Assembly (NCBI GenBank): GCA_030378105.1
Contig: JAUCGL010000034.1
Span: 1-36,164 of the forward strand
DNA length: 36,164 nt
Source of the DNA: Candidatus Halobeggiatoa sp. HSG11
Lineage (GTDB): Bacteria > Pseudomonadota > Gammaproteobacteria > Beggiatoales > Beggiatoaceae
Direction of reading: 5' to 3'
Positions within the stretch are counted from its first letter, which is position 1. Every line of letters starts with the position of its first letter. The position numbers and the translations under genes were made by a program. This document shows positions 1 through 33,093 of this stretch, piece after piece. The notes beneath the pieces were generated by a model, which ran no database searches, had not been told where the DNA came from, and saw only the letters and a program-made list of their open reading frames with translations.

Positions 1-127
1 ATTCCCATCCCCATTTTCATGAGGACATGCTTTCGTGGGAATGACAATTAATTAGTTTATATTGTAATAACTATATAATTTTAATAAAATTTATACTTTA
101 TTACGTTTGTCAATGCGTAAGTCCTAT
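1..127. mobile_element. MITE copy 1, right-hand part
   Basis: This matches the right half of the element at 3842-4107: a stretch ending in a GGGAATGACAATTAATTAG block, an A+T run, and the terminal repeat GTCAATGCGTAAGTCCTAT. The left half lies outside the window. No coding capacity is seen, so it would have been moved by a transposase encoded elsewhere. Its right end runs directly into the reading frame of the next gene and supplies that frame's first codons, so the element appears to have inserted into, or truncated, that gene. Confidence 0.7.
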
Positions 128-2290: not shown

Positions 2291-2694
2291 ACAATAAAAT
2301 CAAGTACATCAATATTAATTAACCCTTCTTGCCCAGCCGGGTAACTGTCATCAAGTTAAGAAAATAACAATTATTAATCAATACGTTATAATATTGACTA
2401 TTTAGCATAGCAAAATGACGTAGCTCAATAATTAATTAAAAATATTGGATTATCTATTAAGGTGCAATTTTTGCCTAACAGATAGTTTGATATGTATAAT
2501 ATTGATAATAAATATTAATTAGATTATATTTGGTTGGTTTCATTGCTCCGATCCTACCTGACTTAAAGCTGTATTTAATTAAAATGTAGTGTATATTAAG
2601 TTACACCATTATTGTTAGAATGTAGATGATAGCTCGTAACCATACTATTATTTCAAAACTGTCCAAACCACTGCTAATCACTCTTAAAAAAAAT

Positions 2695-3831
2695 ATGTCT
2701 AATCAAAATTCTTTACAAATAAAAAGAGGTTATTCTTGTTCTTTAGAACCAGCACAAGCTGTCAATGAACTTTATCAGGCAATTTATCAACCAAATATTT
2801 CCCTTATTATTTTTTATTGCTCACCCAAATATAATCTTGAACAACTTGCCACTGCTTTGCATGAAAGCTTTACTGGAATAAATATTATTGGTTGTACAAC
2901 AGCCGGGGAAATAACACCAGTAGGATATTTAAATGGTAGTATAACTGGTGTGAGTTTAGCAGCAGAAGATTTTACTGCCATGACTATGCGTATTGACAAC
3001 TTGCAAGATTTTCATATTGAACAAGGTCAAGCTCTAACTCATAAATTCTTGGCACAGTTTTTGGCATTAGATAAAGCAAAAACTTTTGCATTTTTATTAG
3101 TAGATGGCTTATCTATGAAAGAAGAAATTGTATCCTCAGTTTTATATAATGCACTGGATGGTATTTCTTTATTTGGTGGTTCTGCTGGTGATGGTTTCAA
3201 TTTTCAACAGACTTTTATCTATCACGAAGGAGCTTTTCACCGTGATTGTGCTTTATTAACATTAATTCAAACTGAATATCCATTTACAACCTTTAAAACT
3301 GAGCATTTTACTGGCTCTGATAAAAAAGCAGTTATAACGGCAGTAATACCAGAACAGCGTTTAGTGCAAGAAATCAATGGAACCTCAGCTGCTTTGGAAT
3401 ATGCTGATTTAATAGGAGTTGATGTAACAGAATTAAATCCAGCTATTTATGCTAAACATCCATTGGTGATTAAAGTTGGTGGACATTATTATGTACGTTC
3501 CGTTATGTTTGCTAATGAGGATTATAGTTTAACTTTTGCTAGTACTATAGATGAAGGTTTGGTGGTCTCAATTGCTACAGTTGGAGATTTAGTAACTGAT
3601 TTAACACAATTATTTGACCGTATCCGTAATGATATGGGTGAACCAGTTTTGGTGCTTGGTTGTGATTGCTTATTTCGCTATAAAGAGATAGAAGAAAAAG
3701 GATTATTTCCAGCAATTAATGATATTATGTGTAAAAACAATGTTATTGGTTTTAGTACTTATGGAGAACAGTTTAACGCCATGCACATTAATCAAACCTT
3801 TACCGGTGTTGCTATAGGAAAAAAGGTATGA
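2695..3831 (+). CDS. FIST domain sensory protein
   Basis: FIST proteins are signal-transduction input modules thought to bind small ligands such as amino acids, often found alone or fused to kinases or methyl-accepting proteins. The 378-residue product shows the FIST_N signature (IIGCTTAGEITPVGYLNG) and a glycine-rich SLFGGSAGDGFNF core. The FIST_C end is VLGCDCLFRYKEIEEKG...GFSTYGEQFNAMHINQTFTGVAIG. No signal peptide or membrane segment follows the chosen start. ATG 2695 (MSNQNSLQIKRGYS) is preferred over ATG 2626 because it places the usual RGYS strand close to the N-terminus; neither has a good Shine-Dalgarno. It precedes the kinase array on the same strand and may feed a signal into it, but a MITE and a hairpin separate them. 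Confidence 0.88.
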   Translation: MSNQNSLQIKRGYSCSLEPAQAVNELYQAIYQPNISLIIFYCSPKYNLEQLATALHESFTGINIIGCTTAGEITPVGYLNGSITGVSLAAEDFTAMTMRIDNLQDFHIEQGQALTHKFLAQFLALDKAKTFAFLLVDGLSMKEEIVSSVLYNALDGISLFGGSAGDGFNFQQTFIYHEGAFHRDCALLTLIQTEYPFTTFKTEHFTGSDKKAVITAVIPEQRLVQEINGTSAALEYADLIGVDVTELNPAIYAKHPLVIKVGGHYYVRSVMFANEDYSLTFASTIDEGLVVSIATVGDLVTDLTQLFDRIRNDMGEPVLVLGCDCLFRYKEIEEKGLFPAINDIMCKNNVIGFSTYGEQFNAMHINQTFTGVAIGKKV

Positions 3832-3841
3832 TTTTAAATAA

Positions 3842-4107
3842 TATAGGACTTACGCATTGACAAAGCAATCATTTTATGAATTTGTTAAGATACAAATAGT
3901 TATAAAAAATCATATCATTTATATAATTTGTATATAAACTATATTTATATATCTCTGTCATTCCCACGAAAGTGGGAATCTAGTAATCTCAAGAACCCTA
4001 GTTTCCCGTTTTCACGGGAATGACAATTAATTAGTTTATATTTAACAAATGTATGATTTTAATATAATTCACACTTTACTATATTCGTCAATGCGTTAAG
4101 TCCTATA
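3842..4107. mobile_element. MITE copy 2, complete (266 bp)
   Basis: Terminal inverted repeats TATAGGACTTACGCATTGAC and GTCAATGCG(T)TAAGTCCTATA bound 266 bp of non-coding A+T-rich DNA. Inside are two short hairpins of the type TTCCCACGAAAGTGGGAA (near 3961-3978). Related copies are at 1-127 and 32788-33093. The ends begin with TA, which would suit insertion at a TA dinucleotide, as for IS630/Tc1-driven elements; IS630-like debris is present at 33167. The driving family is inference. Confidence 0.72.
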
Positions 4108-4120
4108 ATATGTTTTTATC

Positions 4121-4245: not shown

Positions 4246-6825
4246 ATGAAAGTCACTAAAATAACAGAATTAGAACAAGAAATTGTTAAATTACGCAAAA
4301 CTAATGCGGTGTTGATGCGTCAAGTAGAGCATAATATGAATGCTCAAAGTGGTACTTTTTCTCTATTCCAACAAGCAATTAGTATGGAAGGAAAAGCTCA
4401 AAGCTTGGAAACTAAAAACATCAAATTGGAAGAATTAAATAAATTAAAAGATGAATTTTTAGCCAATACCTCTCATGAATTGCGTACCCCATTAAATGGA
4501 ATTATTGGAATTGCTGAATCTTTATTGGATGGAGTCGCCGGAGAATTAAACCAGCTTACTCAAAATAATTTGACCATGATAGCTAATAGTGGCAAGCGTT
4601 TATCCACTTTAATCAATGATATTTTAGATTTTTCCAAATTAAAACATAGAGAAATCGAATTACAGTTAAAACCAGTTAGCTTACAAGCAATGGCAAAAGT
4701 AGTAATATTTTTAAGCAAAACCTCACTCGGAAAGTTGCAACTTATTAATTCTATTCCGAAAGAATTACCATCAGTTCATGCAGATGAAAATCGTTTGGAG
4801 CAAATTTTATATAATCTCATTGGCAATGCAATTAAATTTACCGAATATGGCAAGATAGAAATTACTGCCGAGTTAATTCAAGATGAGTGGATGCAAATCA
4901 CTATTTCTGATACTGGAATTGGCATCGCAAAAGATAAATTGACTAAAATTTTTCAATCTTTTGAACAAGAAGATGGTTCAACAGAAAGGAAATATGGGGG
5001 AACTGGATTAGGTCTTACTATAACTAAACAATTAGTTGAATTGCACGGAGGTAAAATTTGGATTGAATCACAAGTCGGAGTTGGCTCAAAATTCAGTTTT
5101 ACTTTACCAATATCTAAGTCAGTAGCAACACCATCCGAACTAAAACATGCTAAGGAGTCATCACTAGAAAAACCGATTGATATAATTTTGCCAACCAAAC
5201 ATGAAGGATTTTTTAATATAATGATAGTTGATGATGAACCAGTCAATATTCAGGTATTAATCAATCATTTATCATTGCAAAATTACAATATTATCCAAGC
5301 TAATTCTGGAATAGAAGTCTGTGCATTAATTGAACAAGGAGTTAAACCAGACCTAGTTTTATTGGATGTTATGATGCCAAATATGACCGGTTATGAAGTT
5401 GTACAAGAAATAAGAAAACAGTTTTTAATTAATGAATTGCCGATTTTAATGGTGACTGCTAAAAATCAAACTTCTGATCTAGTGACTGGTTTAGAAGCTG
5501 GTGCTAACGATTATTTAACTAAACCAATTTCTAAAAATGAATTATTGGCAAGAGTGAAAATGCACTTAAATTTATATAATTTGAGTACAGCATATAGCCG
5601 TTTTGTACCCCATGAATTTCTTAAGTCTTTGAACAAAGAGAGTATTGTTGATATTCAATTAGGAGATAATCTTGAACAAGAAATGAGCATTTTATTTTCT
5701 GATGTTCGTGATTTTACTACCTTGTCAGAACAAATGACTCCACAAAATAACTTTGATTTTATTAATAACTATTTGAAATACATGGAGCCAATTATAAGTA
5801 AACATGGTGGATTTATTGATAAATATATTGGTGATTCTATTATGGCCCTGTTTCCCAAAAAAGCTGATAAAGCTGTGCAAGCTGGCATTGATATGTTATT
5901 TGCTTTGAATACATACAATTCCATTCATAAGAAGCAGCCTAAAATTAAAATTGGAATTGGGATTCATACTGGCAAGTTAATGTTAGGCACAATTGGCAGT
6001 AAAAATCGTATGGATGGTACAGTTATTTCCGATGCGGTTAATCTGGCCTCACGATTAGAACATACTACCAAAGTTTATGGCAATTCATTAATTATTAGCC
6101 AAAATACTTTGGAACAATTGGATAATCCTAGTAAATATTCCATACGTTTTTTGGATAATGTTAAGGTTAAAGGTCGTTCTGAAAAGGTTAAGGTTTTTGA
6201 AGTTTTTGATGCTGATGAACCAAAGCTTAAAATAAATAAATTGGCTACCCTTACGAAGTTTGAACAAGCTGTTAATTTGTATCAAAAATATGATTTTACT
6301 ACTGTAAAAAGATTGATGACAGAATGTTTACAAGTTAATTCACAAGATAAAGTTGCGAGAACTTATGTTAAACGTTGTCAAAATTTCTTGAAAGTCAAGC
6401 AGAGTAGTGATTGGATTGAAATTGCTCAAACAGTTCAATGGACATCTGATCTATCAATCAACCATCCTATTATTGATGAACAGCATAAAGAATTATTTAA
6501 TCAGATTAAAAACTTAATTATGTCTATAGGTAGTGAAAATACAAAAGAAGTTGAGATAGCGATTAGATTTTTAGAGGATTATATTATTCACCATTTTACA
6601 ATTGAAGAAAACTATATGCAACAGCATAATCATCCTGACTATGCCAAACATAAAGCCGCCCATGAACATTTTAAAAAGAATTTTTGTTATATAAAAAACT
6701 ATTATCAAAAAAATGGTGAATCTATATATTTATCATTGTTAATTCAAGACGAGATAGTTAATTGGTTTATTTATCATATTAAAAAAATGGATCAGAAGCT
6801 GACTTTGCAAAAAGATGATAGATAA
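4246..6825 (+). CDS. Histidine kinase-receiver-adenylate cyclase-hemerythrin fusion
   Basis: This 859-residue soluble protein has no membrane segment. Order: coiled coil (1-65); HisKA with H77 ([11 protein letters not shown]); HATPase_c with N194, DTGIGI at 222 and GGTGLGL at 251-257; receiver with phospho-acceptor D374, T404 and K426; class III cyclase (about 450-655); and a C-terminal bacteriohemerythrin domain (about 730-859). The cyclase keeps metal Asp486 and Asp530, purine-contacting Lys526 and Thr593, and Asn599/Arg603, the ATP-type set, so cAMP is the expected product. The hemerythrin domain keeps all seven di-iron ligands: H747, H783, E787, H802, H806, H844 and D849. By family knowledge hemerythrin binds O2 or NO, so the protein could couple oxygen status to cAMP. 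Normally the sensor sits at the N-terminus, so this order is odd. The start has no Shine-Dalgarno; a cyclase fragment and a REC-kinase gene follow. Confidence 0.93.
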
Positions 6826-7025
6826 ATGTAGAATGTAACTCTTTTAAGGAGAATTGCATTCAAAATTTTCTGAAGTATTTCATTTTCTTGCTGCGAGACA
6901 TGGAGAGGTGAATCCGAAGTCGAGTATATTTGGGAGGTTTCATTTCATTGCACCGACCTTACCAGATTTTTATCATTAACCATTGATAATTAATAATTTC
7001 CTAAAATAGAACAAGATGGTATTTT

Positions 7026-7292
7026 GGAATCCATACTGGACCATTGATGCTTGGTATGATAGGTGGACAAAATCGTATGGATAGTACAGTTATTTTTGAT
7101 GCAGTAAATATTGCTACACGAATTGAAAATCTAACAAAAACCTATCATACTCCTTTGTTAATTTCAGAAGCCAGTTATTTAGAATTATCAACTAAAACAA
7201 AATATTCTATTCAAAAATTTAATAAGGTTAAAGTGAAAGGCAAATCTAAATATGTTAGTATATTTGAAATCAAACTAGTTGCTAATAGTTAA
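7026..7292 (+). pseudogene. C-terminal fragment of a REC-adenylate cyclase
   Basis: The frame GIHTGPLMLGMIGGQNRMDSTV...IFEIKLVANS matches the last ~90 residues of the REC-cyclase at 28404-29561 nearly residue for residue. The match starts abruptly at about 7026 and everything upstream (receiver and both metal aspartates) is gone. One otherwise conserved position reads VIFDAVN where the intact copy has VISDAVN. The fragment cannot be an active cyclase. DNA between 6826 and 7025 is non-coding and includes a dispersed repeat (about 6930-6975). It marks a former complete cyclase gene between the neighbouring kinase genes. Confidence 0.8.
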
Positions 7293-7347: not shown

Positions 7348-8448
7348 ATGAATAAACAACAAACTATCTTAATAGTAGATGACAATCCAGAAAATTTAGC
7401 TCTTTTGGGTAATATATTGACGAAAAAAGACTATATTTTAGGTTTTGCATCGAATGGTACCACAGCATTAAACATTGCTCATAAAAAATGTCCTGATCTT
7501 GTTTTATTGGATGTTATGATGCCGGATGTAGATGGTTTTGAAGTATGTAAACAATTAAAACAAGATACTATGTTGGCAGATATTCCTATTATTTTTCTCA
7601 CTGCTAAAACAGAGAAAGATGATGTAATTGCTGGACTCAAATTGGGGGCAGTTGATTATGTTACCAAACCTTTCAATGAAATGGAATTGCTCACTCGTGT
7701 CAATACACATCTTGAACTCCAAGCAACTAAGAAAGAACTCCGAGAATCTCTTGCTACAAAAGATAAATTTTTCTCCATTGTTGCCCATGATTTAAATAAT
7801 GCATTCTCTGGATTGATAGGTTTAACGTCTGCTTTAACTGATAATAATATTCAACATACAGCAGAAAGAAAAGATGAATATATTCAATATCTACATCAAG
7901 CTGCTGAGAAAGGCTACAATTTATTGACGAATTTATTACAATGGTCAAGATCACAAACTGGTAGTATACAAATTAATCCAGTAGTCATTAGTTTACAGTA
8001 CATCGTTCACAAAAATGTTCAGTTGTTGCAGGAAAAAGCCAAAGTAAAAAATATCAATTTATTTTCTCAATTAGATGAAGATGCTTTGTCAATGTTTGCT
8101 GATGTTAGTATGTTGGACACAGTGATAAGAAACTTGCTTTCTAATGCAGTTAAGTTTACAAATCCTTATGGAGTGATTAAAGTAACTTCTGAAAAATCAG
8201 ACAATATGGTTGAACTGTCAATTATAGATGATGGAGTTGGTATAGAGTTTGATGACATTGATAAATTATTTCGTATGGATATAAGTCATTCAACTATTGG
8301 AACAGATAAAGAAACAGGTAATGGTTTAGGCTTGATGTTGTGTAAGGAGTTTATTGAAAAAAATGGTGGCGTGATAGGGGTTGAAAGTGAAATTGGGAAA
8401 GGCAGTCGATTTTATGTGCGTCTTCCTATCGAATTAGAAAACAAATGA
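7348..8448 (+). CDS. Response regulator-histidine kinase (REC-HisKA-HATPase)
   Basis: The 366-residue soluble protein carries a receiver at residues 5-122 (DD at 11-12, phospho-acceptor D55, T85, K107), a short linker helix, a kinase dimerisation helix with H147 in SIVAHDLNNAFSGL, and a HATPase_c domain with N266, DDGVGIE at 294-300 and GNGLGL near 324-329. The H-box is of the HDL type but lacks the usual proline. Starting with a receiver, it probably takes phosphate from an upstream hybrid kinase and then acts as a kinase itself. It is a close paralogue of 14625-15713. The start has no clear Shine-Dalgarno. It follows a decayed cyclase gene and precedes an 8-PAS kinase gene. Confidence 0.9.
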   Translation: MNKQQTILIVDDNPENLALLGNILTKKDYILGFASNGTTALNIAHKKCPDLVLLDVMMPDVDGFEVCKQLKQDTMLADIPIIFLTAKTEKDDVIAGLKLGAVDYVTKPFNEMELLTRVNTHLELQATKKELRESLATKDKFFSIVAHDLNNAFSGLIGLTSALTDNNIQHTAERKDEYIQYLHQAAEKGYNLLTNLLQWSRSQTGSIQINPVVISLQYIVHKNVQLLQEKAKVKNINLFSQLDEDALSMFADVSMLDTVIRNLLSNAVKFTNPYGVIKVTSEKSDNMVELSIIDDGVGIEFDDIDKLFRMDISHSTIGTDKETGNGLGLMLCKEFIEKNGGVIGVESEIGKGSRFYVRLPIELENK

Positions 8449-32765: not shown

Positions 32766-32787
32766 TTCATAACTATTTTTAATGTTT

Positions 32788-33093
32788 TAGGACTTACGCA
32801 TTGACACACGGCTTTCTCATAAAAATATAATTTATTTTTCAATGTGTTACAAAAAATCCACTCCGTCTGAAGTAAAATTTAATGCGTAAGTCATTGTTTT
32901 GTTATTATTTACGTACATTCATTCTATGAGAATCTCTACGGCAAATTTTGTAATTTATTGATTTATCACGTTATTTTTTATGAGAAAGCCGTGCGCATTG
33001 ACAAACATAATAAAATGTTAATTATATTAAAATCATATAGTTGTTAAATATAAACTAATTAACTGTCATTCCCACGAAAGTGGAAATCTAGTG
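32788..33093. mobile_element. MITE copy 3, truncated and interrupted by a second element
   Basis: The left end TAGGACTTACGCATTGAC and the block 33003-33093 match copies 1 and 2 in reverse orientation. Between them, 32806-32994 (189 bp) has its own inverted ends ACGGCTTTCTCATAAAAA and TTTTTATGAGAAAGCCGT and is flanked by the direct repeat GCATTGAC (32798-32805 and 32995-33002). This suggests a second MITE inserted with an 8-bp duplication. A further AATGCGTAAGTC end-like motif lies inside (about 32881). The far end of copy 3 is missing. Confidence 0.6.

Follow-up and report, generated by a model that had tools for sequence, protein, structure and literature searches.

The window, a stretch of 36,164 nucleotides from the genome of Candidatus Halobeggiatoa sp. 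HSG11, carries an open frame (4246-6825, + strand) for a single soluble chain of 859 amino acids, here called P0001. Within this chain a histidine kinase (HK; HisKA and HATPase domains), a receiver (REC), a class III cyclase, a linker and a bacteriohemerythrin (Hr) follow one another, and all five Pfam domains score above their cut-offs. Upstream lies a gene (2626-3831, + strand) for a protein of 401 amino acids with FIST_N and FIST_C domains (Pfam FIST 5.7e-42, FIST_C 6.8e-23), which we read as a NosP-type sensor of nitric oxide (NO) and the probable partner of P0001. Between the two genes stands a MITE-like palindromic repeat (3838-4111) with inverted ends, present in multiple copies. The host belongs to the family of Thiomargarita and is thus related to the giant sulfur bacteria; in another genome of the same family (G012), a stretch of 1,200 bases agrees letter for letter with a contig of Thiomargarita sp. 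RS_1_20.

All features of P0001 are given on the + strand. Its first 66 residues (4246-4443) precede a HisKA domain with H77 (residues 68-134, 4447-4647; Pfam 2.6e-19), a HATPase_c domain (residues 180-289, 4783-5112; 3.3e-33) and a receiver with D374 (residues 325-438, 5218-5559; Response_reg 1.4e-28), which together make the front of the protein a hybrid histidine kinase. As is usual in these families, H77 occupies the phospho-acceptor position of HisKA, and D374 would take the corresponding role in the receiver. The cyclase (residues 478-647, 5677-6186; Guanylate_cyc 4.3e-21) is joined through a linker (residues 661-735, 6226-6450), which is helical in the predicted model and has TPR-like matches in relatives only, to the Hr domain (residues 742-852, 6469-6801; Pfam Hemerythrin 1.1e-7, 32.8 bits against a cut-off of 25.3). 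Hydropathy over 19 residues peaks at 1.2, compared with 3.0 in a NIT-domain paralogue (C45), and a membrane span is absent. Pfam and hydropathy thus agree with the sequence-only reading, which had placed a kinase, receiver, class III cyclase and hemerythrin in one soluble chain.

The cyclase has the fold of class III adenylate cyclases and the complete catalytic set D486, K526, D530, D596, N599 and R603 (DKDDNR), including the Lys/Asp pair for ATP. Presumably the two metal Asp residues, the Lys/Asp pair and the Asn/Arg pair perform their usual roles towards metal, ATP and the transition state, respectively. A model of the cyclase-linker-Hr part (pLDDT 85.9) matches OaPAC (Z 24.4) and Pseudomonas CyaB (Z 22.9); the earlier description of the cyclase as ATP-type is borne out by these residues, and cAMP is its predicted product. 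Because a fold search with this whole model returned cyclases only, Hr was modelled separately (pLDDT 89.9). It adopts the four-helix hemerythrin fold, with DcrH-Hr as the best match (2avk; Z 19.1, rmsd 1.9, 130 aligned), followed by Methylococcus capsulatus hemerythrin (Z 18.1) and myohemerythrin (Z 15.9); the highest value for an unrelated row is Z 14.9. By sequence, Hr likewise matches DcrH and aligns with the bacteriohemerythrin of M. capsulatus (phmmer 3.9e-12), where all seven ligand residues face the same letter. H747, H783, E787, H802, H806, H844 and D849, numbered correctly before, as was D374, provide five His, one Glu and one Asp at the canonical places of the O2-binding type. The diiron site is predicted to load iron and to sense O2, NO or redox state. 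It is reasonable to read from the sequence that this site controls the cyclase alongside phosphorylation.

Cyclase-hemerythrin proteins within and beyond the family

Fusion of a cyclase to Hr is a trait of the family to which the host belongs and is also present in other bacteria. Five of the eight Hr matches in the host's own genome stand behind a cyclase, and across the family at least 28 full cyclase-Hr matches occur in 11 of 42 genomes. The fronts of the 28 listed are varied: 21 carry a NIT domain, four a Cache-like kinase-sensor domain, one solute-binding domains, one a REC-PAS pair and one, P0001, the HK-REC unit. The NIT domain is described, in the available part of PMC1592074, as a predicted nitrate/nitrite sensor. 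Among the matches listed, all seven Hr ligands are present in 26 of 27 readable rows, and 24 of 28 retain the full set of six cyclase residues. Outside the family, at least 15 loci (among the best 80 loci of a contig scan) encode short cyclase-Hr proteins, mostly of 430-570 amino acids, in Rhodocyclales, Sterolibacterium, Sideroxydans, Nitrosomonadales, a Syntrophorhabdaceae and a deltaproteobacterium.

The exact order HK-REC-cyclase-Hr is known from one genome within the searches made. It was found neither in 40 cyclase-Hr frames (31 distinct, repeat loci included) nor in 40 relatives, nor elsewhere among the 28 listed family matches from 42 genomes, all of whose fronts were examined, nor in 369 genomes of the class and 398 of the phylum, for which two candidates per genome were scored under strict E-value limits; in 72,556 plasmid records no place covers 80% of it. 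The sequence-only reading did not know of a characterised protein with this domain order, and among the proteins searched the exact order has no second example; the set of domains, however, recurs in one other chain of the family (G049:C39), where cyclase-Hr fusions are common. In the open-access literature we found no description of a class III cyclase-hemerythrin fusion, of NIT-HAMP-cyclase-Hr proteins or of a NosP system with a cyclase output; an earlier mention is possible, for instance in the figure of 56 Hr architectures of PMC4919030.

Two further hemerythrin loci of the same genome are of other kinds. One (L028, G000:C86, 2842-3966) is of the Bhr-DGC type, with hemerythrin at the N-terminus and, as read by eye from the translation, a GGDEF domain behind it. 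At the other (L016, G000:C116), a single-domain hemerythrin lies between a Crp/FNR-like regulator with a cNMP-binding match and a membrane protein that by eye resembles NnrS; this is a possible NO-stress locus.

Judging from rows that keep one module without the other, Hr and cyclase are separable in evolution. Four family proteins retain all seven Hr ligands behind a damaged cyclase (L070, G022:C363; L240, G003:C137; L251, G049:C39; L253, G016:C61); the reverse is seen in the short proteins of other bacteria, where eight of 15 loci have one or two changed Hr ligands while the cyclase residues are kept in all 15. Two of the four damaged proteins have a kinase after Hr. The chain of G049:C39 runs sensor-cyclase-Hr-HK-REC-REC-Hpt, its cyclase residues lost (NNENNS) and its Hr ligands complete, and this Hr may serve the kinase that it precedes instead of the cyclase. 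In G016:C61, with the cyclase partly lost (NKDDNF) and the ligands again complete, HisKA starts after Hr, followed by the contig end. Because of this separability, the proposed influence of Hr on the cyclase is the weakest link in our model of P0001. The same rows lend themselves to an alternative in which Hr binds iron and O2 or NO and exerts no control over the cyclase, being a structural or protective part, or the leftover of an input role to a downstream kinase. Nevertheless, the linker and Hr accompany the cyclase in at least 28 family copies with varied fronts, and, of the 119 columns of the Hr region ordered by conservation, those of the ligands hold ranks between 1 and 17; we consider a hemerythrin idle towards its cyclase unlikely.

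The NosP-type neighbour and the kinase N-terminus

The product of 2626-3831 scores 431.1 bits against the NCBIfam NosP model, below the cut-off of 450, and is for this reason called NosP-type. NosP proteins, according to the available part of PMC12570481, bind haem, sense NO and control the autophosphorylation of an adjacent sensorless kinase, NO strengthening the inhibition of the kinase by NosP in some species and relieving it in others. Haem and NO binding would be expected of the protein encoded here. P0001 has the situation of such a partner kinase, its gene standing beside NosP and its HisKA being preceded by neither a membrane segment nor a known sensor domain; with 158.6 bits against a cut-off of 400, it is not filed in the NCBIfam NahK/ErcS family (near_NosP_CTERM). 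The gene pair recurs in another genome of the family (G050), where a NosP of 454.6 bits, 78% identical to the product of 2626-3831, is followed after a 67 bp gap by an HK-REC-cyclase-linker-REC gene that is truncated by the contig end. Four other genomes of the genus were searched for NosP, with a weak match in one and none in three.

The beginning of P0001 carries a NosP-kinase signature, as defined in this analysis. Its first 66 residues align with the kinase N-termini beside five other NosP genes at z 13.8-17.9 against shuffles, and its residues 1-60 are 73% identical (43/59) to the G050 kinase versus 21% (10/47) to C63, the nearest kinase-cyclase of its own genome. A profile trained on the five NosP-linked kinases, leaving out P0001 and G050, was run over 5,624 frames and finds P0001 at E 4.4e-14 and the G050 kinase at about 1e-14. 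It also matches nine of 12 held-out NosP loci from across the class at E<=0.05, the misses being L229 (E 0.11), L232 (E 0.18) and L236 (nothing). Among 101 distinct kinases with enough N-terminal sequence, 15 match at E<=0.05 and all 15 are in NosP loci, a number that includes two rows of P0001 itself and the five training rows; outside NosP loci, none of 78 distinct kinases matches at this threshold. We therefore propose residues 1-66 as a putative NosP-docking helix or module. Since the first 60 or so residues carry the NosP-linked signature and the same gene pair is present in G050, the kinase of P0001 is probably the partner of the NosP-type sensor.

A different arrangement is seen elsewhere in the host genome (L209, G000:C286, 2623-6678), where three consecutive genes encode, as separate proteins, a FIST protein that reaches 60 bits against the NosP model, a histidine kinase and a REC-cyclase. 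This kinase, beside a non-NosP FIST protein, is without the signature (z 0.7).

It may be argued that Hr alone is the gas sensor of P0001, with the kinase answering another signal and the NosP-type neighbour being incidental. The intact Hr, the score of the NosP-type gene just under the NCBI cut-off (431 versus 450) and the multi-copy repeat separating it from P0001 would be in keeping with such an arrangement, but the conservation of the gene pair in G050 and the signature in residues 1-66 are not, and we find it quite improbable. The sequence-only reading had likewise centred on Hr, suggesting direct gas control of cAMP in addition to control through phosphorylation of D374. This is upheld in part, since the cyclase is of the ATP type, carries an intact Hr and belongs to a kinase-receiver chain; what has to be amended is that the kinase likely has a gas-sensor partner of its own next door.

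Probable mosaic origin and integrity of the locus

The closest relative along P0001 switches from the kinase-cyclase C63 to the NIT-cyclase-Hr protein C45 at about residues 591-604 (6016-6057), residues 486-530 being slightly nearer C45 than C63. In a tree of residues 443-592 P0001 groups with six HK rows (SH-aLRT 98), whereas a tree of residues 606-735 places it with C45 and L065 (95) as a part of the NIT-cyclase-Hr clade (97). An informative-site test comparing C45 with C63 places the break at 591-604, and none of 10,000 permutations is as strong; with more rows, the break falls at 591-604 (p 0.046) and 591-616 (p 0.0013). The comparison of C45 with G050 places it near residue 475 (474-476), again with 0 of 10,000 permutations as strong. 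For the second half of the cyclase, constraining P0001 to group with C63 is rejected (p 4.8e-10), as is constraining it with the six HK rows (3.9e-6), and keeping the NIT-Hr clade free of P0001 gives p 0.22. For the first half, constraint with the NIT-cyclase-Hr clade is not rejected (p-AU 0.33), the value for C45 plus L065 being 0.053; kinase-side parentage also rests on the receiver and the N-terminus, both absent from the Hr-type parents.

P0001 thus looks like a mosaic, which would have arisen when a NosP-partner HK-REC-cyclase gene acquired the 3' part of a NIT-cyclase-Hr gene, namely the back half of the cyclase, the linker and Hr. The crossover most likely went through a conserved 12-residue stretch, its position being less sure than its existence, and a mosaic of this kind implies that the catalytic residues of the cyclase come from both parents. 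With only 66% identity to the nearest gene of either parental type, the recombination would not be recent.

Such a pattern raises the question of misassembly, which the sequence-only reading had raised for the 3' end. That P0001 is an assembly chimaera or a functionless dead recombinant is very improbable: an exact order confined to one of the genomes searched, an assembly of 326 contigs and a multi-copy repeat adjoining the gene would suit this explanation, but nothing else in the genome comes close to the junction DNA (5800-6250), the best other place being 71-72% identical (best 40 of 99 candidates scored), the 66% identity speaks against a recent event, and the frame, catalytic residues and ligands are intact. 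Misassembly inside P0001 is unlikely.

The repeat at 3838-4111 matches at all 40 of 40 scored candidate places in its own genome, and its ends are also found at window positions 109-127 and 32787-32805. As several copies stand at contig ends, it probably breaks the assembly often. It may separate the transcription of nosP and P0001, and it could mislead assembly between them, but in G050 the two genes lie on a single contig and the repeat is absent.

Downstream, a cyclase relic (7020-7280) was considered as the original, displaced 3' end of P0001 and ruled out by its closer identity to another copy. The REC-cyclase gene 28404-29561 matches it with 92% identity, the best HK-REC-cyclase rows with 61%, and the relic is hence taken as debris of another copy. 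The adjacent REC-HK gene (7348-8448) has a receiver 81% identical to that of the same REC-cyclase, and by these identities both 7020-7280 and 7348-8448 are read as debris of local duplications. From 7348 to 29561 the window is rich in signalling genes: REC-HK occurs twice, together with a REC-cyclase and large hybrid kinases of the PAS type, whose sensors are dCache or Tll0287-like.

Proposed mechanism and comparison with known systems

Taken together, these observations lead us to favor, with a probability of roughly 0.55, a reading of P0001 as the effector of a NosP-type NO system, with cAMP as its output, Hr as a second input in cis and a mosaic origin. The NosP-type haem protein would bind NO and act through the N-terminal helix of P0001 on the balance between kinase and phosphatase. 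Phosphate would then pass from H77 to D374, and the receiver would set how active the fused adenylate cyclase is. The diiron site of Hr would answer O2, NO or redox state, the helical linker passing the adjustment to the cyclase. We infer the docking, the sign of the NO effect, the phosphotransfer and the control by Hr from sequence features. The cAMP so produced would find its targets among the genome's nine cNMP-binding proteins. NO made by the host itself is plausible because strong cytochrome cd1-type (PF02239) matches are present on four contigs. As a guess by analogy, P0001 might make more cAMP at low O2.

More tentatively, the cyclase may be read both by haem NosP in trans, through phosphorylation, and by diiron Hr in cis, and so serve sulfur bacteria that use nitrate as a coincidence detector for NO together with O2 or redox state. 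P0001 would then belong to a wider, undescribed family of nitrogen-oxide- and O2-responsive cyclase-Hr proteins that swap input modules, here by recombination inside the cyclase. We see this extended proposal as possible, though it remains doubtful. If true, the locus would represent a new bacterial route from nitrogen oxides or O2 to a cAMP signal via two metal-based gas sensors. The larger points are a NosP-type system ending in a cyclase and a varied cyclase-Hr family for which the open-access literature yielded no account. The family also offers natural variants in which to study how a class III cyclase is addressed by a diiron site. These are NIT-cyclase-Hr and REC-PAS-cyclase-Hr proteins, stand-alone cyclase-Hr proteins whose ligands are intact or changed, and copies that have lost the cyclase but keep an intact Hr before a kinase.

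Within the family, the NIT-HAMP-cyclase-Hr proteins C45 and C76 share with P0001 the cyclase-linker-Hr unit and all its catalytic and ligand residues, C45 being 67% identical over the aligned unit; they differ in being membrane proteins in which a predicted nitrate/nitrite sensor replaces the kinase-receiver part. The REC-PAS-cyclase-Hr protein of a Thiomargarita MAG (G012:C458) resembles P0001 in its adenylate-type cyclase, predicted to be controlled by a receiver, and its intact Hr, but the chain is without a kinase and has a PAS-like stretch between receiver and cyclase. G049:C39 is likewise a single chain that combines a kinase and a receiver with a cyclase fold and Hr, though in a different order, with a membrane-type sensor in front and the cyclase residues lost.

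The NO two-component systems NosP-NosK/NahK (PMC12570481; NosP-NahK-NarR, PMC8846402), so far as the available parts of these sources describe them, resemble the P0001 locus in having a FIST sensor gene beside a sensorless kinase, and the N-terminal signature of P0001 is common to NosP-linked kinases. In P0001, by contrast, the kinase is fused to a receiver, which is followed in the chain by an adenylate-type cyclase and then Hr. Bhr-DGC of Vibrio cholerae and Bhr-HD-GYP of Ferrovum (PMC9388753, PMC8846402, in the parts available) also join Hr to a second-messenger enzyme; unlike P0001, they are c-di-GMP enzymes with an N-terminal Hr and without kinase or receiver. The chemoreceptor DcrH, as presented in the same part of PMC9388753, has a C-terminal Hr as in P0001, for which it is the best fold match, but its output is chemotaxis. 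Thus, the NosP systems and the Hr-regulated messenger enzymes described in these parts of the sources act on c-di-GMP, whereas the P0001 locus, if our reading is true, would tie both to cAMP.
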